Source of the DNA: Candidatus Saccharimonadota bacterium
Lineage (GTDB): Bacteria; Patescibacteriota; Saccharimonadia; Saccharimonadales; UBA4665
Length of the DNA: 64,000 nt
Assembly (NCBI GenBank): GCA_025928155.1
Contig: JAICKC010000002.1
Span: 24,873 to 88,872, forward strand
Reading direction: 5' to 3'
Shown in pieces: positions 1-26,127 of the stretch. The first letter of the stretch is position 1. Every line of letters starts with the position of its first letter. Position numbers and translations under genes: made by a program. The notes under the pieces were generated by a model, which saw only the letters and a list, made by a program, of their open reading frames with translations, searched no databases and was not told the origin of the DNA.

Positions 1-915
1 ATTTTTGCCGAGCCAAATGTCGCCCGCATCTTTCAGCCGGATGTACCCGCTGGGCCCGTTGTGCAAATGGGTCATGTGCTCGACGGCGTCAGCGACTATA
101 TGCTGGAGCAGCCAGCCGAGCTTGGATTCCGTCTGGCTACAGCCAAGCCGGCTGATGTCGTGCACGTACTCAAAGCCTGCAAGGCCGACATCCTCATAAA
201 CTATCTGCCGGTGGGTTCACAAAAGGCGACTGAGTTTTACGCCCAAGCAGCCATTGATGCCGGCGTGGCATTTTTGAACTGTATTCCGGTATTCATCGCC
301 AGCAACCCGGAATGGGAGCAGAAATTCATTGATGCCGGCCTGCCGCTCGTCGGCGATGACATGCGCTCACAGCTCGGCGCCAGCGTGCTCAGCCAGATCT
401 TGCAAGAACTAGCCTTTGACCGCGGGTTGGCAGTAGATTTCCACCAGCAGCTCAACATCGGTGGCAACACCGACTTCAATAACATGATGGTACAGACCCG
501 CTTGGCCAGCAAAAAGAAGAGTAAAGAAAACGTGATCCGCGCTCAAAACGACATCCGTGGCATCCCGGTGCCCGAGCACAGCCTGTTTGCCGGGCCGAGC
601 ACCTACCTGCCCTACCTCAAAGACAACAAAGTAGCGTATTTTAACCTGCGCCTGCGTGGCTTCGGTGATGCGCCGGTAACCATTGACGCCAAACTAAGCG
701 TCCAGGACAGCGAAAACAGCGCCGGGGTAGTCATTGACGCCATCCGCTACCTGCAGGTCGCCCGCGAGCTCGGCGTAGTAGGTGCCCTGCGCGGCCCCAG
801 CGCCTGGACACAGAAGACTCCGCCGGAACAGATGATGTATGCCGCTGCCAAGCAGGAGTGCGAAGCGCTGGCTCACCGCCAGCTCTCGGCGTCGGTCCGC
901 AAACAGCTCAAGTAA
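1..915 (+). CDS. ino1: myo-inositol-1-phosphate synthase, 5' end truncated by window
   Basis: Frame is open from base 1; NYLPVGSQKA...LNCIPVFIASNP...GDDMRSQLGAS...LNIGGNTDFNNM typical of inositol-3-phosphate synthase. Confidence 0.9.
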   Translation: MFAEPNVARIFQPDVPAGPVVQMGHVLDGVSDYMLEQPAELGFRLATAKPADVVHVLKACKADILINYLPVGSQKATEFYAQAAIDAGVAFLNCIPVFIASNPEWEQKFIDAGLPLVGDDMRSQLGASVLSQILQELAFDRGLAVDFHQQLNIGGNTDFNNMMVQTRLASKKKSKENVIRAQNDIRGIPVPEHSLFAGPSTYLPYLKDNKVAYFNLRLRGFGDAPVTIDAKLSVQDSENSAGVVIDAIRYLQVARELGVVGALRGPSAWTQKTPPEQMMYAAAKQECEALAHRQLSASVRKQLK

Positions 916-919
916 TAAT

Positions 920-994
920 CTCATACTACTTCTTTCCGCTTGGGTGTGCTTGGGGCACAGGCCTTTGGTAAGGTGGTACTGGAAGTAGTATGAG
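920..994. repeat. Stem-loop repeat copy 1 (CTCATACTACTTC...GAAGTAGTATGAG)
   Basis: 13-bp terminal inverted repeat plus internal hairpins TGTGC-TTGGG-GCACA and CCTT-TGGT-AAGG; near-identical copies at 1489 and 2714. Confidence 0.85.
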
Positions 995-1226
995 CATAAG
1001 CCCGTGGGCTACGGAGCGTAGCGCCGCGTTCTTGAAATGAGGAAGGTGGGGTATAAAAAGATACGCCCGTCCTACCCGGCGGAGAATCATCGCTGACCAT
1101 TGTTGTCTGCGAATCCGCCGACCTGTTTCCAGGGTATTTATCTGATATTGGCCTCAGACTGCCGTATAAGCCTAACCTCACTTGTGGTAATGACGGTTAA
1201 GCCCGACGATGGCAGGCAGCGTGTGA

Positions 1227-1382
1227 TTACTTCTTAGAGTCGCCTCCCTTGTTCCTCTTCAGCCAGCGCCTTTCCTTGCGACGAGTCCTTTTCGCGTTGG
1301 CGCTGGGCGCCTTGGCGGTAAGTCCCTTTTCTACGCGCGCTGCGCGCTGCTTCTTCCGACGCTCGGTGTTCTCGTTTCCCAT
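1227..1382 (-). CDS. Tiny basic protein (51 aa) MGNENTERRKKQRAARVEKGLTAKAPSANAKRTRRKERRWLKRNKGGDSKK
   Basis: Complete ORF below the track cut-off; K/R rich; shares KGxTxxAPxANA with neighbour 1656..2021. Confidence 0.5.
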   Translation of the reverse strand: MGNENTERRKKQRAARVEKGLTAKAPSANAKRTRRKERRWLKRNKGGDSKK

Positions 1383-1488
1383 GCTGGTTATTCCCTTCGG
1401 TAGGAATGGTTGTGCAAGGAGTTTTTGCCTGCCACGACACTTCTTTATACCAGATTTGACAGTTTTTGCAACGCTTCGTTATAAAAAT

Positions 1489-1562
1489 CATACTACTTCG
1501 TTCCGCTTGGAGCGTGCTTGGGGAGCACAAGCCTTTGGTAAGGTGGTACTGGAAGTAGTATG
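1489..1562. repeat. Stem-loop repeat copy 2
   Basis: CATACTACTTC...GAAGTAGTATG; internal hairpin GTGCT-TGGGG-AGCAC replaces TGTGC-TTGGG-GCACA of copies 1/3. Confidence 0.85.
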
Positions 1563-1576
1563 AGTGTAGGCACCTC

Positions 1577-1628
1577 CTTTCGTGCCGGGCGAGGCATGGA
1601 TTGGGGACTGCCCCGCCGGGCACGAAAG
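1577..1628. repeat. Second stem-loop next to copy 2 (CTTTCGTGCCGGGCG...CGCCGGGCACGAAAG)
   Basis: 15-bp inverted repeat with one mismatch, just downstream of the minus gene ending at 1656. Confidence 0.7.
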
Positions 1629-1655
1629 TTAGTGCTTGAGGTAAGAGACTAGGTA

Positions 1656-2021
1656 CTACCCCTTACGTTTACCCCTTATGCGGAAAGCGCGTGCCACGAC
1701 GTTCTTCCCCTGGGCTGCCTTCTGGCGAGCATTAGCCTCTGGAGCACGCCTGGTTTCACCCTTGGCTGCACGCCTGTCACGCTCTGCCTTCCGGTCGCGC
1801 GTCTTCTTGGAGCCTTGACCGGCAGGACTCTTCGGTTTCGCGTCTTCCTTTTTTAGACGCTCTTGGCGATTCTTCAGAGCGTTATCCGCTCGTCGTTCCT
1901 TAGCACCGGGAGCACGCGCCGGTTTACCCTGATCGACACGATTGGCACGCGTTCTTGCACGGGCGCGAGTTTTCCTAGAAGCTCGGCTTCCACCGGAGTC
2001 GCTGGGTGGGTTCCTTACCAT
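1656..2021 (-). CDS. Low-complexity Arg/Lys/Ala-rich basic protein
   Basis: 121-aa ORF, strongly basic, followed by two stem-loops. Confidence 0.6.
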   Translation of the reverse strand: MVRNPPSDSGGSRASRKTRARARTRANRVDQGKPARAPGAKERRADNALKNRQERLKKEDAKPKSPAGQGSKKTRDRKAERDRRAAKGETRRAPEANARQKAAQGKNVVARAFRIRGKRKG

Positions 2022-2169
2022 AATGGCATTCCCTCTCCTGAGGAGTGGTGTGATCAGCGGTTGCTGTCACGGATACTTTTAATACTCCATTTGGTGTGCT
2101 TTTTCAAGCCCACTTTCGTATTGACACCTTCGTACTTTATATAAAAACGGAGATAATGGCGTGAGAAAA

Positions 2170-2241
2170 CTGTCGGCGGATTGTAGGGAGGCTATGCCTC
2201 TTGCGTGTAAACGCGCTACACACCTACTATCCGCCAGACAG
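2170..2241. repeat. Large stem-loop with two internal hairpins
   Basis: CTGTCGGCGGATTGTAGG / CCTACTATCCGCCAGACAG; internal GAGGC-TAT-GCCTC and GCGT-GTAA-ACGC. Confidence 0.7.
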
Positions 2242-2317
2242 CCTCCTTAGTATTTTCGTGTCTTGCGAGGGTAGCTCACGTCAACTGGCATACCTGCCTT
2301 GGGACACAGTTAACCTT

Positions 2318-2488
2318 TTACCTCGTCTTCCTCCTCCGAGGCTTGGCTTTGGCTCCCTTTGCGTGCCTAGGCGGTTTCTTGGGACCGATGAAGCGCTTCT
2401 GACAGTTGCCACAACGAAGTGCTCCGCGGTTCAACCTACTGGCCCTTTTGAGGCCGGCGTGCCACCCGCAACCTGCGACTGGAGACAT
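2318..2488 (-). CDS. Tiny CxWH / CxxC zinc-ribbon basic protein (56 aa)
   Basis: MSPVAGCGWHAGLKRASRLNRGALRCGNCQKRFIGPKKPPRHAKGAKAKPRRRKTR; paralogous to 9561..9788 and 9757..9915; SD-like GGAGAAGG upstream. Confidence 0.65.
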   Translation of the reverse strand: MSPVAGCGWHAGLKRASRLNRGALRCGNCQKRFIGPKKPPRHAKGAKAKPRRRKTR

Positions 2489-2713
2489 TCCTTCTCCTAG
2501 AGTTCTTGTCTTGCGTCTGCTATCGACGCCGCTTGTTGGTCATCTCTAAGACTGGTTGCTTGTCGACCTATCGTCCTGCCTTACCTTCTTTCCCCTTCTG
2601 GTGGATACTGAGCGCAGTTAACCTGTCGTGAGTTATTATGCCAATTTGGCTATTTTTGCACTTGTCTGAGGACAAGCACGGAAGCATACATGAATAAAAT
2701 GTAGTGATAATCT

Positions 2714-2784
2714 CATACTACTTCGTTCCGCTTGGGTGTGCTTGGGGCACAGGCCTTTGGTAAGGTGGTACTGGAAGTAGTATG
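2714..2784. repeat. Stem-loop repeat copy 3
   Basis: One nucleotide different from copy 1 over 71 bp. Confidence 0.85.
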
Positions 2785-2802
2785 GGTGCAAGGAGACCCG
2801 TT

Positions 2803-2843
2803 GTGCCGGTGAGGCGTGGTGGTGGCCAAAGCCCCACCGGCAC
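2803..2843. repeat. Second stem-loop next to copy 3 (GTGCCGGTGAGGC...GCCCCACCGGCAC)
   Basis: Inverted repeat resembling the 1577..1628 element, in the same relative position. Confidence 0.65.
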
Positions 2844-2855
2844 GCGGAGCAGCAT

Positions 2856-3395
2856 CTAGCTGCTGGGGGTGGGGTGCGCCTCGTCAGGCGAGGGTCCCCG
2901 TGTGGTGAGGATGCAATAGATCAGGGTAGCGATCACCGCGACCACAGACCCCCAGACGAGCAGGGCGGTCTGGACACTGAGCGGAACGCCGAACCCACGA
3001 AGGGCGAAGATCACCCCGAATGTGCCGCCGGCTCCCAGGATACCCTGAGGGACTGCCGCGAACGACGCGCCCTTGCCGCCCTTGCCTTGCACGCCTCCCG
3101 ATGGTCGAGTCCTGACCCCTACCTTCTTCTGGGCCCTGGCCTGCTTCTTGGGCTTCTGGCTGTCGACCTTTGCCTTTGCGTGCGGTTTGAGTGCCGTGAT
3201 GTTACCCTTGATGGTCTCAGGATCCTTGGTGTTATCCCTATCACCGTGCGCGCCCGCTGGGCGACCCCTGGACCCCTCGAACCTCCTAGCTGCTCGGCTC
3301 GGCCTGCTCGCCGCTGGCCGCTGGCTTCGCATTGCACCGGTTTCACCTGTGTTAGGCTCACGCCAGTTCGGACTGTTCTTATGACGGCTTGGCAT
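2856..3395 (-). CDS. Basic N-terminal region plus C-terminal transmembrane segments
   Basis: ATG at 3395 preceded by AGGTGA; GAGGTFGVIFALRGF and ALLVWGSVVAVIATLIYCIL hydrophobic stretches. Confidence 0.6.
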   Translation of the reverse strand: MPSRHKNSPNWREPNTGETGAMRSQRPAASRPSRAARRFEGSRGRPAGAHGDRDNTKDPETIKGNITALKPHAKAKVDSQKPKKQARAQKKVGVRTRPSGGVQGKGGKGASFAAVPQGILGAGGTFGVIFALRGFGVPLSVQTALLVWGSVVAVIATLIYCILTTRGPSPDEAHPTPSS

Positions 3396-3518
3396 GTTAA
3401 TGTTCACCTCATCCTTGTTGAGTGGTGTGTCCTTGCGTATATAGTAATAACATTATATTTATATAAAAACAAGCTCTTTCGCGCCAGGCTTGCGGCTATA
3501 ATTTGTGGAGAGTTTGTA

Positions 3519-3588
3519 CGGATGAGTGGGCTTGGGTGCGAGCGATTGACAGCTGTCGCTGCATCGAGAGCCCTCGCCCACTCATCCG
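3519..3588. repeat. Large stem-loop (CGGATGAGTGGGC...GCCCACTCATCCG)
   Basis: 13-bp perfect inverted repeat; stem and flank shared with 8973..9038. Confidence 0.75.
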
Positions 3589-3645
3589 GTTAGAAATAGT
3601 AGCTCCAACTGCTAGGTTCTTCGGGCAGGTGCGTCAGGGCACGTC

Positions 3646-3819
3646 CTACTGGCCCTTTTGCTTGCGCTTGGCCTCAGCCTTGGCAACAGCCCGTTGCGCG
3701 CGCTGTGCCTTAGCCAAAGCCTTGGCGGCTTGCGGAGAGCGTCCTCCGTGCTTGTTCATGGCCTTGCCGAGGTCGTCCCGAGCCTTCGCGCGCCTCGTTA
3801 CCAACTCTTTCCAGCCCAT
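3646..3819 (-). CDS. Tiny basic protein, GxxSPQA family
   Basis: MGWKELVTRRAKARDDLGKAMNKHGGRSPQAAKALAKAQRAQRA...; GAGAGGAGGTGATAAT SD immediately upstream. Confidence 0.75.
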   Translation of the reverse strand: MGWKELVTRRAKARDDLGKAMNKHGGRSPQAAKALAKAQRAQRAVAKAEAKRKQKGQ

Positions 3820-3860
3820 ATTATCACCTCCTCTCAAGGGTTGTAGAAAATAGCGCAGTG

Positions 3861-4049
3861 CTACTTCCTCCCCTTACTCCCCTTCCTGGCCGTCTTGGTC
3901 TTTTGAGCCTTCTTGGCCTTGGCGAGATCAGCCGTGCGCGCTCGCACTAGCTTGGCACTCGCTGCCTTGGCTTGGGGCGAAAAGACCCCATGCTTCCGTA
4001 CCGCTCGAGTGTAAGCCCGTTCTGCCAACTGGACTCTTAGTCCAGGCAT
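3861..4049 (-). CDS. Tiny basic protein, GxxSPQA family
   Basis: MPGLRVQLAERAYTRAVRKHGVFSPQAKAASAKLVRARTADLAKAKKAQ...; CGAGAGGAGGTGAAAGTC SD. Confidence 0.75.
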   Translation of the reverse strand: MPGLRVQLAERAYTRAVRKHGVFSPQAKAASAKLVRARTADLAKAKKAQKTKTARKGSKGRK

Positions 4050-4173
4050 GACTTTCACCTCCTCTCGAAGGTTGCAGTCTGTGGGGTGCCCACCGTAAGA
4101 ACCGCTCATATTTTTATACTTGTTCACCATATCGTCAAGCTAAATACAATATTTATATACATAATTTGTAAAA

Positions 4174-5271
4174 ATGTCAATATGGTGTAAAATTGCCTAC
4201 GTACAATACCGCCGACACAGGAAGAAGGTACGTACATTGACAGCCCAACCTACCACCTTTGGACAGCTATGGCACGAACCATTGCCTAGGTTGTTCGCGA
4301 GAGCAGCGCAGATAAAGCGCACGGAGCTACGTTGGCGCCGAATGTCACCGCTGGCCTGGCTTTACCCATCAGACATGGATCTGATGAGAGCGCTTGAGGT
4401 TAGTGTTCTGTGGCTCAGGCTCACCATGCAGCAACCGTTGCTCAGCGTGCTCGTGCGGACACCCGGCATGGGGTGTGCTCGACTCCGGACGCTCCTTTGC
4501 CTGCGCTGGTTCCAGCACACGCTCGACCACATTATCGACGGGCAGATCAAGATGCCAATTGAGGGAAAGCCACGGGATTACTTCGACCAAGCCGAACGTC
4601 TGTGCGAAGCGCTCCTCTGCCCGCAGGACATCGCAGACGAGGTCGCCCTGCCGCTCATGGCAACGCTGGTCTACGTCCTGCGTGCTTGCAGCGAACAGCT
4701 CGGCTTCGATCCGAGGCCGGAGCTACAAGCCATATGGCACGGCTGGCACGGCGATGCCGAGCGGGTTCTCAACAAGGAGCCGTTCGCGGACGAGGCAACC
4801 CTCAGCGCAGCACATAATGCTAGCGTCGAGATCGTCGAGCTGATGCTGCGCATCATGGACGTTCCGGCGTCCATCACACAGAGTGTCAGGTTGCACCTGA
4901 AGCTCCTGCTGGATGCCGACAACCTTGATGACTTCGCGAGTGACGTGCGAGACGGCAATCTCCAGTTTCCGCGCGAAGAGTTCGAGCGAGCTGGCATCGA
5001 CCCCGACCAATTGCTAGCCTGCGCGCACCCCCGCGTCCAGAAAACCCGAGAGTGCCTGACAGCGCTTCCTGGGTTTTACGCCTGGCTGCGGTCCCGCGTA
5101 GCAGCATGCGAGCAGCTACAAAACGTCACCGACGCAGCGATCGTGCTCAGCTACATACAGCCCAAGTGGCTGCGTGGCTACGTGCGGCGACACATCCAGC
5201 AGGGCATCCAGAAGCCCGCACTAGCTCTCGCTGCCTACAGCGAGACCCATACCTCACTTGAGAGGAGGTGA
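4174..5271 (+). CDS. Putative squalene/phytoene synthase-like protein (divergent)
   Basis: DHIID near the N-terminal third and DADNLDDFASDVRDGNLQFPREEFERAGI resemble the two Asp-rich motifs and GxxxxP region of squalene/phytoene synthases. Confidence 0.5.
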   Translation: MSIWCKIAYVQYRRHRKKVRTLTAQPTTFGQLWHEPLPRLFARAAQIKRTELRWRRMSPLAWLYPSDMDLMRALEVSVLWLRLTMQQPLLSVLVRTPGMGCARLRTLLCLRWFQHTLDHIIDGQIKMPIEGKPRDYFDQAERLCEALLCPQDIADEVALPLMATLVYVLRACSEQLGFDPRPELQAIWHGWHGDAERVLNKEPFADEATLSAAHNASVEIVELMLRIMDVPASITQSVRLHLKLLLDADNLDDFASDVRDGNLQFPREEFERAGIDPDQLLACAHPRVQKTRECLTALPGFYAWLRSRVAACEQLQNVTDAAIVLSYIQPKWLRGYVRRHIQQGIQKPALALAAYSETHTSLERR

Positions 5272-5274
5272 AGT

Positions 5275-5514
5275 ATGAAAAACACACCACAATGGATGCG
5301 GCTCAGTAAGAACCCCAACCGCGAGGTGAGCAGCGTGCACAAGGTCGCTGCACCCGCCCGGGGACAGAAGTACCGCGTCACCGTGACCAAGGACGACCGG
5401 CACGGCGGGAGGCAGTCCAAGGACTACCACGCGCGCACCAAAAAAAGGGCGGAGCGGATCGAGGCGCGCGAAGATGAGTACGCCGAGAAGCGGAACAACT
5501 CCTCGTGGATTTAG
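5275..5514 (+). CDS. Small basic protein
   Basis: 79 aa; GAGAGGAGGTGAAGT SD before ATG. Confidence 0.7.
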   Translation: MKNTPQWMRLSKNPNREVSSVHKVAAPARGQKYRVTVTKDDRHGGRQSKDYHARTKKRAERIEAREDEYAEKRNNSSWI

Positions 5515-5520
5515 GAGGTA

Positions 5521-5595
5521 GGTGCTGTCAGACGGTACGGCGGATACAAACGAGCGAGCTTTTGGCTCCCACTTGTACCCGCCGTACCCAGCACC
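5521..5595 (+). terminator. Large stem-loop, possible terminator
   Basis: GGTGCTG..GGTACGGCGG / CCGCCGTACC..CAGCACC followed by CTTTTATC. Confidence 0.55.
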
Positions 5596-5750
5596 CTTTT
5601 ATCACCTTTACAAATCTTTATAATGATATACTCTATACTGTAAGCTTTCTTGCTGACTGAAATATCAAGTTGTGGTATATGCACGTTATATACTGAGCAA
5701 GCAAAGTAGCACATGACGAGCAGAGAGTCGACGTTAGGAGAGGAGTGCCC

Positions 5751-5927
5751 ATGACGGCACGCCCCCCAGGTGGCAAGGACGGTCGCAACCGGAAAGGACA
5801 CCGGATGCACCGAAGGAAGCCGATGGAACGTGACCCCAAGGTCGCACGACGGAGGTTGTTGCGGTCCTCGAAGATTCACGTTCCTCCGGAAACGGTTACC
5901 AACCGGCTGTACAAGGCAGATGGGTAA
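5751..5927 (+). CDS. Small basic protein (MTARPPGGKDGRNRKGHRMHRRKPMERDPKVARRRLL...)
   Basis: GGAGAGGAG SD upstream of ATG; basic composition. Confidence 0.55.
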   Translation: MTARPPGGKDGRNRKGHRMHRRKPMERDPKVARRRLLRSSKIHVPPETVTNRLYKADG

Positions 5928-6100
5928 TGCATCGTCCTCGGCGGCGCAGGTCGTACCAACCGAATACACGGCTATCACGGCCTCCTAGCAGGCTGACTAC
6001 GCCGCGAAAGCAAGGGTGAAGAACCACACAGGCGCCGTTAGGCCGAAGATAGGCTTAACAGCCACAACCTACTCCCTCAACTTCCGAAAGGAGGTGAACC

Positions 6101-6235
6101 ATGCCCAGGCTAACGGGGAAAGCCAGCAAAAAGAAGACCCGTTACGTTAAATCTGAAAAGAAGACTCAGAGGTCGAAGACGGCACGCGCAGAAAAGAAGG
6201 TACTGCGCGTACTCGGCAGGACCCAGAAGTCCTGA
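6101..6235 (+). CDS. Tiny basic protein (44 aa) MPRLTGKASKKKTRYVKSEKKTQRSKTARAEKKVLRVLGRTQKS
   Basis: AAAGGAGGTGAACC SD before ATG; below ORF-track cut-off. Confidence 0.65.
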   Translation: MPRLTGKASKKKTRYVKSEKKTQRSKTARAEKKVLRVLGRTQKS

Positions 6236-6379
6236 CAGGCTACTTCTCCAAGCAGCCCGATAGACGGACGTGACGACAGGGACTCTAGCGAGGTTCAAGG
6301 TGTCGTCATCGACAACCTTATACCTCTCCAAACTCCTCCCTGCTCGTCATTTCCGTCTTATGAAAAACGATTCCGAACT

Positions 6380-6403
6380 CCGCTCTAGCAGCGGACCTTT
6401 TTA
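6380..6403 (+). terminator. Rho-independent terminator-like hairpin
   Basis: CCGCT-CTAGC-AGCGG followed by ACCTTTTTAT. Confidence 0.5.
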
Positions 6404-8326
6404 TACTAAAACGGCTTTAATGCGGCGGATACCGGCGCTCGACGACTCTTCTTTGGTAATCTTGAACTTCTTGCCATCTTCGGCCAGCTGGCCGGTGTGG
6501 TCCACATGCGGACCACCGCAAATTTCCAAGCTGACGATGTGGTCGTCCGGACCCATTTGGTACACCTTGACGGTTTCAGCATAACGCTCCCCAAATGGCC
6601 CAATGGCGCCCATATCCAGCGCCTGCTGCGTGGGGTACTCGGTGAATTTGACCGGCAGGTCTTCGGCAATCCAGCCGTTGACGAGATCTTCGGCCTGCTT
6701 GATTTCCTCGTCGGTCAGTTTGGCTTCGTGACTAAAGTCGAACCGCAAACGTTCCTCGGTAATATTACTGCCGTGCTGGCGCAACTCCAAGCCGAACAGT
6801 TGGCGCAGAGCGCTTTGCAGCAGGTGAGTCGCCGTGTGGTATTTCTTGTGCTGCAAGGTTTGGCCGCCTAGGCCGCCCTTAAACGTGCCTTTTGCCGCCG
6901 TCTGGGAGCGAGCCCTTTGCTCGCGCATACTTTTCTCAAATTGAACGTCCGCATTATCCGCGACAACAACGCCTCGCTTGAATGCTTCTTCTTTTGAGAG
7001 TTCCACAGGAAAGCCGTATGTATCGTACAGCTTAAAGATCATCTGGCCTGATAGCCTGCTTTCGAAATCGTTTTTAAAGCTGTCGCCATCACCTAAAGAG
7101 GTTGTGAGTATGATTTTCTCAAATTCCTGAAGGCCCTTGCGCAGCGTCTGGCGGAAAACTTTCTCTTCCTTTACCAGAATCTCAATAACTTTCTCGCGAT
7201 TTTCCTTAACTTCTGGATAGTCGGCTTCGTATAGGCCGACAATAACCGGCACCACCTGCTCAACAAAATTCTGCTCAATACCGAGGTCAAACGCAAACCG
7301 GATAGCCCGGCGCATCAGCCGGCGCATCACGTAGCCCTGCTCCTTGTTGCTTGGCACTACGCCGTCCACGGCTAGGAAGACCGCACCGCGCAGATGGTCG
7401 GCAATGACGCGCATACTGGTGCTATGACTGTCATATTTTTTGCCCGATACGGCTTCTAGCTTCTCTACGATTGGCCACAGAATGGTCGACTTGAAGGCAT
7501 CCGCACTATCGATAGCAGCCATGGCGATACGCTCCAGCCCGCCGCCAAAATCGATGTTTTTATTCGGCAGCGGCTCAAACCCGTTTTCCCGCCGGACATA
7601 CTGCATAAGTACATTGTTGCCGATCTCTACAAACCGGCCGCAGTCGCAGTTGGGATGGCACTTAGGCCCGTATTCGGTATTATGCTCAATGTAATCAAAT
7701 TCATAAAAGATTTCACTGGAAGGGCCGCCTGGCTCGCCAACCGGCATATCCTCGATGTTTTTGCCACGATACCACCAGTTCTTGTCAGCCGCATAGTAAA
7801 AGATACGGGCGCCAGGGTTCATGCCCTTTTGGTAGCCATCGGCTTCAGTGCCAATCTCCATTTCGCCCGCCTCAATGCCTTTGCCTGCAAACAGCTTCTT
7901 CCATATGGCACCGCTTTCGGTGTCTTTCGGTATTCCAAACGCTTCGTGACCCAAGAAAGTTGTTATGTACAATTTATGCGGATCAAGTCCGACCACATCG
8001 GTCAGGAACTCAAAAATCCACGGAAACTGCTCCGCCTTGAAATAATCGCCCAAAGACCAGTTACCCAGCATCTCAAAAAATGTAGTGTGTCGATTATCCC
8101 CAACTTCCTCAATATCCTGGGCACGGAGACAAGTCTGGCTATCCACTATGCGCTTACCTTCCGGGTGAACTTGGCCAAGCAAATACGACATAAGCTGTTG
8201 CATGCCGCTACCGGTAAATAAGGTGGTGGGGTCATTATGTAGCACCAAGGGTGCCCGCGGAATCACCTTGTGGCCACGCTCTTCAAAAAACTGCAAATAT
8301 TTGTTACGAATCTCCTGCGCCATCAT
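6401..8326 (-). CDS. alaS: Alanyl-tRNA synthetase, catalytic and editing domains only
   Basis: RNKYLQFFEERGHKVIPRAPLV...; editing motifs HTATH and CGGPHVDHT; ends at SAGIRRIKAVLV. Confidence 0.95.
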   Translation of the reverse strand: MMAQEIRNKYLQFFEERGHKVIPRAPLVLHNDPTTLFTGSGMQQLMSYLLGQVHPEGKRIVDSQTCLRAQDIEEVGDNRHTTFFEMLGNWSLGDYFKAEQFPWIFEFLTDVVGLDPHKLYITTFLGHEAFGIPKDTESGAIWKKLFAGKGIEAGEMEIGTEADGYQKGMNPGARIFYYAADKNWWYRGKNIEDMPVGEPGGPSSEIFYEFDYIEHNTEYGPKCHPNCDCGRFVEIGNNVLMQYVRRENGFEPLPNKNIDFGGGLERIAMAAIDSADAFKSTILWPIVEKLEAVSGKKYDSHSTSMRVIADHLRGAVFLAVDGVVPSNKEQGYVMRRLMRRAIRFAFDLGIEQNFVEQVVPVIVGLYEADYPEVKENREKVIEILVKEEKVFRQTLRKGLQEFEKIILTTSLGDGDSFKNDFESRLSGQMIFKLYDTYGFPVELSKEEAFKRGVVVADNADVQFEKSMREQRARSQTAAKGTFKGGLGGQTLQHKKYHTATHLLQSALRQLFGLELRQHGSNITEERLRFDFSHEAKLTDEEIKQAEDLVNGWIAEDLPVKFTEYPTQQALDMGAIGPFGERYAETVKVYQMGPDDHIVSLEICGGPHVDHTGQLAEDGKKFKITKEESSSAGIRRIKAVLV

Positions 8327-8396: not shown

Positions 8397-8466
8397 GCAG
8401 ATAGGCGAGGTTGGTCTTGGGTGCTTCGACTAGAAGTCGCACCACAGGCCTCGCCCGCCTATCTGC
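8397..8466. repeat. Large stem-loop
   Basis: GCAGATAGGCG / CGCCTATCTGC; internal GGTGC-TTC-GACT-AGA-AGTC-GCACC. Confidence 0.7.
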
Positions 8467-8692: not shown

Positions 8693-8857
8693 CTACCTGC
8701 CTCCTCGTAGTGTCCGCAGCCAGGACAGTTTGCTTTGCGCTTCCTTCGCTTGGGGCGACCTCTCGCCTTGCCGCGTTTTTGCCACACGCAAAGCCTGTCT
8801 GGCCTTCCGAATATCTTTCTTCGAAGGACGAGTAGCCTTACTAGAGCGCTTAGCCAT
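8693..8857 (-). CDS. Tiny basic protein, GxxSPQA family (54 aa)
   Basis: MAKRSSKATRPSKKDIRKARQALRVAKTRQGERSPQAKEAQSKLSWLRTLRGGR; CGAGGAGGTGAGAAC SD; below/misframed in ORF track. Confidence 0.7.
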   Translation of the reverse strand: MAKRSSKATRPSKKDIRKARQALRVAKTRQGERSPQAKEAQSKLSWLRTLRGGR

Positions 8858-8972
8858 GTTCTCACCTCCTCGAAACTGGTCGTGGGGTGCGCGGTTTTAC
8901 CTAAGAACTGTACTGTTATAAGCCAAGTGCACCTGCTCGTCAAGGCAAATTGGCTAGTTATAAAAAGGGATT

Positions 8973-9038
8973 GGATGAGCGGGCGGGGTCTGGAGTAGAT
9001 TCAGCCAAAAGGCCAATCGCGACCCCGCCCGCTCATCC
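8973..9038. repeat. Large stem-loop (18-bp perfect arms)
   Basis: GGATGAGCGGGCGGGGTC / GACCCCGCCCGCTCATCC; adjoining AGCTCCAACTGCTA[C]GTTCTT[G]GGGC shared with 3601..3626. Confidence 0.8.
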
Positions 9039-9086
9039 TGCTGGAATTGAATAGCTCCAACTGCTACGTTCTTGGGGCCCACGGAG

Positions 9087-9302
9087 CTACCTGTGCCGCC
9101 CTCTGGCTTCCCGCTGTCTCCCGTACTGCCTGACGAGGGCGTCCACTTTGGCGTTTCTACTCTGTGTCCGCTCCGAGCGTACGACGCCACGTTTACGATC
9201 GGCTCGCTCCGAGCTGATAGCCCCGAGGATCGCCCAGCTAACCTTGGCCTGTGTTACCTTCTTCTCTTTCGACTTTCCTTTGGGCCTCTTTCCCATGCGC
9301 AT
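9087..9302 (-). CDS. Small basic protein
   Basis: M(R)MGKRPKGKSKEKKVTQAKVSWAILGAISSERADRKRG...; GGAAGGGAGT upstream. Confidence 0.6.
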   Translation of the reverse strand: MRMGKRPKGKSKEKKVTQAKVSWAILGAISSERADRKRGVVRSERTQSRNAKVDALVRQYGRQREARGRHR

Positions 9303-9560
9303 ACTCCCTTCCGAGATTGATTCTGCGTACGATGGGTGGGGCATCTATGGCTGTCGGTACTTACCGCATAAAGCCATACGGTGGATAGTGAGAGGTGCGA
9401 AGTGCTTGCGGTTCTATATAACGTTCGCCCCAGAACTGTTTTTAGTTATAGCCAACCATGCGCATCCTTGCAATGGTGTTGTCGGTATTGAGATACTACG
9501 CTTGGCAGGTTAGGGCTTATCAGGAAACCACACAAAGCTCATTCACAAGAGGAGGCAGTC

Positions 9561-9788
9561 ATGGCAGGTTCCTGCGCGTGGCACACCAACACGGACTTTA
9601 AGCGCGTCCTCCCTCTTTTTGGAGGGATCCGGTGCAAGGGGTGCGGCGGGCGCTTTGCTCCTCGCAAGCCAAAGGCATCACCACCCAAGCATGCCAGAAG
9701 CCGAAGGGGCGCCAAGGAGTTAGTCGCAACGGATCCACTTCTAGAAAGGAAGGATAATGGCAAAATCACCGCTTTGCAGCTGGCATAA
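9561..9788 (+). CDS. CxWH / CxxC zinc-ribbon small protein
   Basis: MAGSCAWHTNTDFKRVLPLFGGIRCKGCGGRFAPRKPKASPPKHARS...; AAGAGGAGGCAGTC SD. Confidence 0.65.
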   Translation: MAGSCAWHTNTDFKRVLPLFGGIRCKGCGGRFAPRKPKASPPKHARSRRGAKELVATDPLLERKDNGKITALQLA

Positions 9789-9915
9789 CAGCCCGCAGGT
9801 GAAGCGTTCCGTCCTTAGAGGGACGCCATGCCCAGGGTGCGGAAAGAAATTCATCGTCCGCAGAGATAAGCTGGGAGGAGAGGCGACCATACCCATCAAA
9901 CGAAAGCGCAAGTAA
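9757..9915 (+). CDS. CxWH / CxxC zinc-ribbon small protein (52 aa)
   Basis: MAKSPLCSWHNSPQVKRSVLRGTPCPGCGKKFIVRRDKLGGEATIPIKRKRK; AAAGGAAGGATA SD; overlaps the previous CDS by 32 nt. Confidence 0.65.
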   Translation: MAKSPLCSWHNSPQVKRSVLRGTPCPGCGKKFIVRRDKLGGEATIPIKRKRK

Positions 9916-23559: not shown

Positions 23560-23627
23560 TACACACCCCTCTCTACGCTCACGCAAGTGAGATTCCCGTC
23601 AAACGGAAAGAGATCAAGGGGTGTGTA
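23560..23627 (+). repeat. Stem-loop downstream of 22884..23489
   Basis: TACACACCCCT / AGGGGTGTGTA, internal CTCAC-GCAA-GTGAG and TTCC(C)GT-CAA-ACGGAA. Confidence 0.75.
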
Positions 23628-23643
23628 TTCATGTCCGGACAGT

Positions 23644-26127
23644 TTATTTGACAACAAAGTTCAGCAATTTGGCAGGAACGTAGATGGTTTTTATGATTTG
23701 TTTGCCCTCGAGGTTGGCAGCAATTTTGGTATCGGCACAAGCCAGCTCAACAGCTTTTGCTTCATCGGCCTCCGCCGGGGATTGTACTGTACCGCGCAGT
23801 TTGCCGTTGATCTGTACTGCTATGGTCACTGTGTCCTCCACCAGGTATTTCGCGTCATATATGGGCCACTGACTAGTATGGATCGAGCCTTCATGACCCA
23901 GCTGTGCCCACAGTTCTTCGGTCATATGCGGGGCAAAGGGCGCCAGCAGCTGCAGCGTAGTCTTCAGAGTTTCTTGCCATACTACGCTGCCAAGCGGCAC
24001 TTCAGCCTTTAGTTTGTACAGCTCGTTGGTCAGTTCCATGAGTGCAGCGATGGCGGTGTTAAAGCCCATGTCGGCCAGGTCGTCGCTCACTCGCTTAGTG
24101 GCTCGGTGCACAGCCCGACGCACTGCTTCATTGTCGCCGTCCGTTTTTTCGGTGCTCACATGTTCCTGCACTAAGTTCCAAATACGCTGCAGGAAGCGGA
24201 AACTACCGCCCATTCCCTCGACGCTCCAGTTAGCGCTCTGGTTCCACGGGCCGATGAACAGCTCCATGATACGGATGCAGTCGACGCCGTAGCCCTGCTC
24301 GATGAGCTCATCAGGTTGGATGGCGTTGCCTTTGCTCTTGCTCATTTTTTGGCCGTCAGGCGCCAGGATCATGCCCTGATTACGGAGCGCTTTGAACGGT
24401 TCGCCGAAGTCAATCAGCCCTTCATCCTGCATCACCTTCGTCCACATGCGGGCGTACAGTAGGTGCATCACCGCATGTTCTGCACCACCGATGTAATCAT
24501 CCACAGGCAGCCAGAATTTGACTTTGTCAGCATCAAACGCCTTTTGGCCGTTGTGCGGGTCGGCAAACCGCAGAAAGTACCAACTGCTGCAAGCAAAGCC
24601 GTCCATAGTGTCGGTTTCGCGCTCAGCATCGCCCCCACATTTCGGGCACATCACGTTCACGAACTCTGGCACGTTGGCCAGTGGGCTGCGGCCGTCGCCG
24701 CTCGGCTCAAATTTCTTGAGCTCCGGTAGGGTAACCGGCAGCTGGTTTTCGGGCACCGGTACGATGCCATCTTTCGGGCAGTGGATCATCGGGATCGGCG
24801 CACCCCAGTAACGCTGGCGACTGATCAGCCAGTCACGCAAGTGGTAACTGTGCACACGCTTGCCCATACCATGCTCAACCATGTAGTCCTTGATCCTCTC
24901 GGTGGCGCCCTGGATACTCATACCATCCAGAAAGCCGGAGTTCACCATTTTGCCGGCATGCTCCTGCACCTGCTTGGCCTCAGTGATTGGCCCATCGTCG
25001 CCGTTTTCACCCACGACAACACGCTTGATGGGCAAATCAAATGTCTTGGCAAACTGGAAATCGCGCATGTCGTGTCCGGGGACACCTACCACAGCGCCGG
25101 TACCGAACCCGGCCAGCACGAAGTCACTTACCCACACCGGCATCTCTTCGCCGGTCAGTTCGTTTTTAACATACAGCCCAGTAAATACGCCTGTTTTCAA
25201 GCGGCCTTCTTCTTGGCGCTCAACCTCACTTTTGGCCAGCGACTTTTGTACATAGTGTTCCACGGCTTGCCAGTGTGACGAGCCAGTTCTGGGCACGATT
25301 TCTTGCTGCATCACTTTGCGCACAAACTCGTGCTCAGGGGCCAGTACTACGAAAGTGGCACCAAAGTTGGTATCGGGTCGGGTCGTGAATACCGTAATTG
25401 ACTCATCTGTTTTTGCATTGGTGACGTTGTAAGTAATATTAATGCCTGTTTTGTGGCCAATCCAGTTGCGCTGCATGCTCTTGATGCTGTCCGTCCAGTC
25501 GAGGTCGTCCAGATCTTTCTCCAGCTGGTCGGCATAGTCGGTAATTTTGAAAAACCACTGCTTGAGTGCCTTTTTTTCGACTTCAGAACCACAGCGCCAG
25601 CAGCGACCGTTCTCCACCTGTTCGTTAGCCAGCACGGTTTTGTCGACCGGGCACCACCACTGCAAGCTCTCCTGGCGGTACGCCAGCTCGCGTTTATAGA
25701 GCAGGAGGAAGAACCACTGCGTCCACTTGTAGTAATCCGGGTCAGATGACGTAACCTCGCGGCTCCAGTCATAGCTGAAGCCCATGGCCGTCAGCTGCTG
25801 CTTAAACTTGCCGGTGTTTTCGGCAATGGCCTGCTGGGGGCTGACGCCCGTCTTGATTGCATAGTTTTCGGCTGGCAGACCGAACGCATCCCAGCCCATT
25901 GGGTGCAATACATTGTAGCCGTTCATACGCGCGTGACGGCTAACAACATCACCTATGGTGTAATTGCGCACGTGTCCGACGTGCATAGCCGCACCACTGG
26001 GGTAGGGAAAGTACTCTAGGATATATTTTTTGGGCTTGGCCGCATCTTCGCTGGCCTCGTAAATTTTGTCGGCCGCCCACTTTTGTTGCCACTTGGGTTC
26101 AATCTCTTTCGGGTTGTATCGTTTCAC
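23644..26127 (-). CDS. leuS: Leucyl-tRNA synthetase
   Basis: YFPYPSGAAMHVGHVRNYTIGDV; KMSKSKGN. Confidence 0.97.
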   Translation of the reverse strand: MKRYNPKEIEPKWQQKWAADKIYEASEDAAKPKKYILEYFPYPSGAAMHVGHVRNYTIGDVVSRHARMNGYNVLHPMGWDAFGLPAENYAIKTGVSPQQAIAENTGKFKQQLTAMGFSYDWSREVTSSDPDYYKWTQWFFLLLYKRELAYRQESLQWWCPVDKTVLANEQVENGRCWRCGSEVEKKALKQWFFKITDYADQLEKDLDDLDWTDSIKSMQRNWIGHKTGINITYNVTNAKTDESITVFTTRPDTNFGATFVVLAPEHEFVRKVMQQEIVPRTGSSHWQAVEHYVQKSLAKSEVERQEEGRLKTGVFTGLYVKNELTGEEMPVWVSDFVLAGFGTGAVVGVPGHDMRDFQFAKTFDLPIKRVVVGENGDDGPITEAKQVQEHAGKMVNSGFLDGMSIQGATERIKDYMVEHGMGKRVHSYHLRDWLISRQRYWGAPIPMIHCPKDGIVPVPENQLPVTLPELKKFEPSGDGRSPLANVPEFVNVMCPKCGGDAERETDTMDGFACSSWYFLRFADPHNGQKAFDADKVKFWLPVDDYIGGAEHAVMHLLYARMWTKVMQDEGLIDFGEPFKALRNQGMILAPDGQKMSKSKGNAIQPDELIEQGYGVDCIRIMELFIGPWNQSANWSVEGMGGSFRFLQRIWNLVQEHVSTEKTDGDNEAVRRAVHRATKRVSDDLADMGFNTAIAALMELTNELYKLKAEVPLGSVVWQETLKTTLQLLAPFAPHMTEELWAQLGHEGSIHTSQWPIYDAKYLVEDTVTIAVQINGKLRGTVQSPAEADEAKAVELACADTKIAANLEGKQIIKTIYVPAKLLNFVVK

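Follow-up and report, generated by a model that had tools for sequence, protein, structure and literature searches.

A repeated gene-end hairpin among small-protein genes of a Candidatus Saccharimonadota bacterium

Three near-identical copies of a 71–74-nt hairpin element lie behind three unrelated small genes of a Candidatus Saccharimonadota bacterium. We analysed them within a 64,000-nucleotide stretch of one contig (the window) and across the genome. The reading that we tentatively prefer, with a confidence a little short of even, is that the element forms the long hairpin within a duplicated 3′-end module, terminator-like or RNA-stabilising in the sense of the small genes; judged by the sequences searched, this module would be specific to this genome. 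A structured nucleic-acid element is likely, as the original prediction held, but not for the reason it gave, as the copies hold no compensatory change. Better support comes from outside the three copies, namely from a compensatory change in the neighbouring hairpin T3, from two-sided changes between the related hairpins at 3519 and 8973, and from the recurrence of hairpins at the 3′ ends of small genes.

Copies of the element and the duplicated module

A pattern scan of the window for the two arms, with a spacer of N40..60, located CATACTACTTC-N49..52-GAAGTAGTATG at three places. The strand listed, putative for the element, follows the sense of the small genes.

922–992, minus strand: copy 1 of the element, 71 nt, 3′ of gene F; it ends the array where the inositol-phosphate synthase gene converges on it
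1489–1562, minus strand: copy 2 of the element, 74 nt, 3′ of gene E
2714–2784, minus strand: copy 3 of the element, 71 nt, 3′ of gene C

With none expected from 100 shuffles, three copies are far beyond chance, and their predicted positions and perfect 11-bp arms are borne out; perfect pairing extends to 13 bp in copy 1, 12 bp in copy 2 and 11 bp in copy 3. Copies 1 and 3 are, as predicted, a single base apart within the element (T/G, position 12) and 98% identical over 82 bp, and copy 2 has two substitutions and three inserted bases relative to copy 3. The genome-wide search that the prediction had proposed returned the same three places and none besides in 1,301,116 bases, both by pattern and by covariance model. 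Single arms, counted with one mismatch allowed and with the six real arms included, were no commoner than a reversed control (8 and 12 matches on the two strands versus 8 and 11), so the genome shows no background of decayed copies.

Copies 2 and 3 are parts of a 138-bp module, 81% identical between the two, which carries a second, GC-rich hairpin beside the stop codon.

1570–1635, minus strand: GC-rich hairpin T2, between the gene E stop and copy 2 in the same module; an inverted repeat of 27 nt, 81% complementary
About 2803–2843, minus strand: GC-rich hairpin T3, between the gene C stop and copy 3; homologous to T2 by module alignment

About 60 bp downstream are common to copies 2 and 3, and copies 1 and 3 have 10 of 11 bp in common upstream of the repeat, on the opposite side of the module. 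Because both pairs share flanking sequence, the duplicated unit is larger than first described, and the earlier preference for structural selection 'rather than simple duplication' is not established. Within the module, the middle 71 nt stayed nearly identical and the flanks diverged.

Near-identical copies behind unrelated genes, with identity that breaks off sharply at the inverted-repeat ends on one side, are also what a non-autonomous mobile or REP/MITE-like hairpin element inserted beside genes could leave. We regard such an origin as improbable, because the copies are few, clustered and without target duplication: there are three, within 1.9 kb, with none elsewhere in 1.3 Mb, and alignment by eye of all three showed no flanking direct repeat of the kind that marks MITE insertion. 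Nor does insertion alone explain the shared flanking module sequence. On a Komeilibacteria contig (L049), an ORF for a RAYT-type transposase adjoins a hairpin with the same 11-bp arms, but this arm match is close to what chance alone would give in a scan of this type (estimated at about one match). The one RAYT found in the present genome lies on contig C2 among unrelated palindromes, unlike the element, and a RAYT link of the REP/RAYT type was rejected for this genome; that gene, of the Y1 transposase kind, is at about 6000–6650 (L059), and its flanking palindromes are of the GAGGACTGTCCTC type. REP/BIME and other intergenic palindromic repeats resemble the element as palindromic repeats near gene ends, with GTAG in the arm; they differ in their genome-wide dispersal, the element being confined to three copies in one 1.9-kb stretch.

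Architecture of the small-gene array

The myo-inositol-phosphate synthase gene on the plus strand ends at 915, six bases ahead of copy 1. From 1227 to 4049 follow six short minus-strand ORFs.

1227–1382, minus strand: gene F, 51 aa, predicted pI 11.8, AAGGGA upstream; without Pfam or NCBIfam match
1656–2021, minus strand: gene E, 121 aa, pI 12.0; without Pfam or NCBIfam match
2318–2488, minus strand: gene D, 56 aa, zinc-ribbon-like (CxWH...CxxCxxxF), followed by a different hairpin
2856–3395, minus strand: gene C, 179 aa, with a basic N terminus and C-terminal hydrophobic stretches
3646–3819, minus strand: gene B, 57 aa, SPQA family
3861–4049, minus strand: gene A, 62 aa, SPQA family, first gene of the array; without a long hairpin upstream

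Most of these ORFs have a ribosome-binding-like site upstream, that of gene F being weaker, and the proteins are very basic (predicted pI 11.4–12.0). The SPQA motif of genes A and B recurs in a third gene, at 8693–8857, and gene D has paralogues at 9561–9788, at 9757–9915 and on contig C11. Comparison of the small proteins with Pfam, NCBIfam and PHROGs gave no family above cut-off. A search of 197 genomes from the same order for the SPQA and zinc-ribbon families gave, outside this genome, only one weak match, with internal stops; no viral relatives of either family were found, and in four relatives that have the synthase gene, the roughly 1.4 kb read next to it contains no such array. Arrays encoding tiny, very basic or zinc-ribbon proteins occupy 1227–4049, 5275–5927 and 8693–9915 of the window and about 24500–26400 of contig C11. 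Between the first two lies a 365-aa ORF (4174–5271) that has only a sub-threshold squalene/phytoene synthase match and no homologue in 20 relatives.

Fold and base-pair variation

The original prediction gave the element a three-way-junction fold. On the minus strand this holds, a three-way-junction-like fold being the minimum-energy fold in all three copies; on the plus strand it is found in copy 2 only, and copies 1 and 3 form one long hairpin. The copies fold with z-scores of −3.8 to −5.4, which are probably owed largely to the outer stem. This 11-bp stem is invariant across the copies. The plus strand is the more stable of the two, at −33 to −36 kcal/mol versus −23 to −28 kcal/mol on the minus strand.

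Pairing had also been said to be kept in copy 2, which the comparison does not confirm: none of the 22 pairs of the proposed structure changes on both sides among the three copies, one changes on a single side (U-G to U-A) and one is lost (U-A to C.A). An inserted GA in copy 2 lets the inner hairpin re-form one base further in; the structure is tolerated there, and this shift is no covariation. Compensatory base-pair changes are thus absent among the three copies, which leaves the element itself without a covariation signal for structured RNA, and its variation cannot tell structural selection from recent duplication.

The adjoining hairpins vary in a different manner. GGGC/GCC of T2, beside copy 2, matches GGT/ACC of T3, beside copy 3, a single compensatory change from C-G to T-A, and the module alignment shows a G.G mismatch removed through deletion on both arms. 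A further position reads as A-C on the plus strand, a mismatch, and as a G-U pair in gene sense. The strand evidence is split, the downstream hairpins T2 and T3 pairing better in gene sense and the element being more stable antisense.

A plus-strand transcript would fit the second half of this evidence. The element could belong to a three-copy family of small non-coding RNAs, divergent from the next small gene, with a 5′ end at or near the element and a 3′ end in the variable downstream hairpin. One feature that points that way is the following.

1456–1485, plus strand: promoter-like TTGACA-N18-TATAAA, 11 of 12 consensus positions, ending 3 nt before copy 2

Promoter-like sites of this kind number 7 in the window and 0–2 in shuffles. 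Just upstream of copies 1 and 3, RATAATCT is kept, and the conserved 5′ domain, the diverged 3′ hairpin and the greater stability of the plus strand fit the same picture. Such a family is a serious rival, although we consider it unlikely. Copies 1 and 3 have no good −35 by eye and no promoter-like site was reported there; copy 1 has no comparably strong downstream hairpin and stands directly against the stop codon of the plus-strand gene; no plus-strand U-tract follows the downstream hairpins; T2 and T3 pair better in the minus sense; and the element is absent from all searched relatives. Multi-copy bacterial sRNA families share with the element a conserved 5′ part, a variable 3′ hairpin and, at one copy here, a promoter-like site; the element differs from them in having neither a terminator U-tract nor a homologue in relatives.

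Hairpins at the ends of small genes

We scanned the window for hairpins with perfect arms of at least 11 bp and loops of 30–60 nt, which gave 19 nested matches versus 0–4 in shuffles. Beyond the three copies, the scan found hairpins at 3519–3588, 8397–8466, 8973–9038 and 23560–23627, and six of the seven (the three copies included) are inside small-gene arrays. In about 440 kb of the genome, 66–76-nt hairpins with such arms occur in the window only, the others being 49–59 nt long. The further hairpins of the arrays, which usually measure 66–79 nt, are as follows.

2168–2246, minus strand: hairpin H2, 79 nt, 3′ of gene D
3519–3588, minus strand: hairpin H3, 70 nt, 3′ of gene B; homologous to 8973–9038
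8397–8466, minus strand: hairpin, 70 nt, 3′ of the SPQA-family gene at 8693–8857
8973–9038, minus strand: hairpin, 66 nt, 3′ of a small basic ORF ending at 9087, in the second array

The hairpin outside the arrays (23560–23627) is 68 nt long with perfect 11-bp arms (TACACACCCCT), and lies just beyond the 3′ end of a leucyl-tRNA-synthetase-like ORF (23644–26127, minus strand).

A strong hairpin is present downstream of all the separate minus-strand units: F, E, D, C, A–B and the two whose ends are at 9087 and 8693. The hairpins of units E, C, B and D and of the ORF ending at 9087 lie 12–94 nt beyond the stop codon; for the 8693 unit the distance is about 226 nt, and gene F has two hairpins past its stop, H1 about 97 nt away and copy 1 234 nt away. 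The first array has four gaps between separate units, and in all four the hairpins are closer to the preceding stop than to the next start: 20 and 93 nt from the stop versus 106 from the start (E to F), about 12 and 71 versus 225 (C to D), 71 versus 146 (D to E) and 57 versus 123 (B to C). The 41 nt that separate genes A and B contain no hairpin. The ends of the array favour a 3′-end over a 5′-end association, because no long hairpin stands 5′ of the first gene, A, and copy 1 follows the last gene, F; facing the convergent gene from that last position, copy 1 cannot be the leader of another minus-strand gene. What the DNA shows directly is the copies, the limits of the module, the order of the genes and where the hairpins stand with respect to stop codons.

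Contig C11 repeats this design of a gene followed by a hairpin module. Two zinc-ribbon genes there are each followed by a 116-bp module, 83% identical between the two, with a small and a long hairpin.

Contig C11, 24735–24847: hairpin module after a zinc-ribbon gene
Contig C11, 25228–25342: hairpin module after a zinc-ribbon gene

The arm of the C11 hairpins has GGAGGCTGTCTGGCG in common with H2, the hairpin after zinc-ribbon gene D. Between 3519–3588 and 8973–9038, a 65-nt stretch is 80% identical; the respective consensus folds contain six two-sided changes in gene sense and three antisense, some of them in loosely aligned inner parts. The same pair of hairpins shows a T-A/C-G exchange in the arms and a common tail, TAGCTCCAACTGCTASGTTCTT. 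The C11 hairpins and a hairpin at 5534–5588 are more stable in antisense.

Small ORFs in one orientation, each followed by an imperfect palindrome, also recall the recombination sites that end integron gene cassettes; attC sites are 57–141 nt long, a range similar to the hairpin lengths found here, and the genome has three tyrosine-recombinase-type genes. These recombinases are on contigs C8, C23 and C31, and none is on the contig of the array. Neither the R-box GTTRRRY nor its complement RYYYAAC was found at any hairpin end, the few GTTRRRY sites at 850–4200 lying elsewhere; the hairpins have no common core, and the units have promoter-like AT-rich regions of their own. Lacking an R-box and an integrase gene on the contig, the attC identification was rejected, and we consider it very improbable.

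Searches for homologues

No Rfam family matches the element at or above its gathering score. Searches of 60 and 343 related genomes by DNA comparison, covariance model and pattern gave only short, chance-level matches and no credible copy; the best model match, in one relative (G012), was rejected as lying inside a transketolase gene, and the other matches inspected in relatives apparently lie inside coding sequence too. The exact core occurs in neither the genome_contigs nor the viral_contigs collection. The exact arms are absent from the viral contigs and have five matches in genome_contigs, which were discounted: three Clostridium hairpins share the arms and not the interior, and the Endomicrobium and Komeilibacteria matches are long perfect fold-backs. 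The Clostridium hairpins, from three species (L045, L046 and L047), combine the arms AGACATACTACTTC with unrelated loops and represent a different family of repeats with the same 11-bp arm. A pattern for the internal core had seven matches in viral contigs, none with the context of the element; plasmid and phage collections gave no match, and a literature search on the element and related topics yielded nothing relevant. At the sensitivities used, the element thus appears to be an uncharacterised local example of an already known kind, the repeated gene-end hairpin, without a detected relative.

A gene-end model for the element

If the hairpins work at gene ends, each small basic-protein gene would be its own transcription unit, with A and B sharing one. 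The putative minus-strand RNA would run from the ORF through a short spacer to a short GC-rich hairpin and then to the 71–74-nt hairpin closed by the 11-bp stem; these hairpins would serve to terminate or protect the transcript and to insulate neighbouring units from each other. Duplication of the module behind the unrelated genes F, E and C would have given rise to the three copies.

This gene-end model is favoured because all separate minus-strand units have a downstream hairpin, stop-proximal in all four gaps, because C11 repeats the design, because T2 and T3 differ by a C-G to T-A change and hold a G-U pair in gene sense, and because the two-sided changes of the 3519/8973 pair are more numerous in gene sense. 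It is weakened by the absence of covariation in the element itself, by the greater stability of the element's plus strand (the C11 and 5534 hairpins favour antisense too), by the good plus-strand promoter-like site at copy 2, and by the near-identity of 71 nt behind unrelated genes, which exceeds what a generic terminator needs. Transcription of the element, its strand and its terminating or stabilising role are putative. A terminator scan of the three copies on both strands returned no terminator-like site. Because no consistent U-tract is present at any hairpin on either strand (in gene sense, only copy 2, with ATTTTT, and H2, with TTTT, have one), the hairpins are not canonical intrinsic terminators. 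Like intrinsic terminators and stabilising 3′-UTR hairpins, the element places a strong hairpin shortly past the stop, at the end of a transcription unit; it differs from them in having no consistent U-tract, in the size of the hairpins (66–79 nt, most loops 30–52 nt) and in that one sequence recurs nearly unchanged behind unrelated genes.

A bolder version, which we think has a small chance of being right, is that a dedicated structured RNA element caps expanding one-gene units of tiny, very basic or zinc-ribbon proteins, copied near-identically behind unrelated genes, and so forms a system that controls a lineage-specific repertoire of small proteins at the RNA level. Should the hairpins end or protect transcripts, they would delimit the units of a lineage-specific array of small-protein genes and exemplify gene-end hairpins that lack U-tracts in a bacterium with a small genome. 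The small-protein arrays are a more unusual finding than the hairpin repeat, and these tiny basic and zinc-ribbon proteins, absent from the searched relatives, may merit more attention than the repeat itself.
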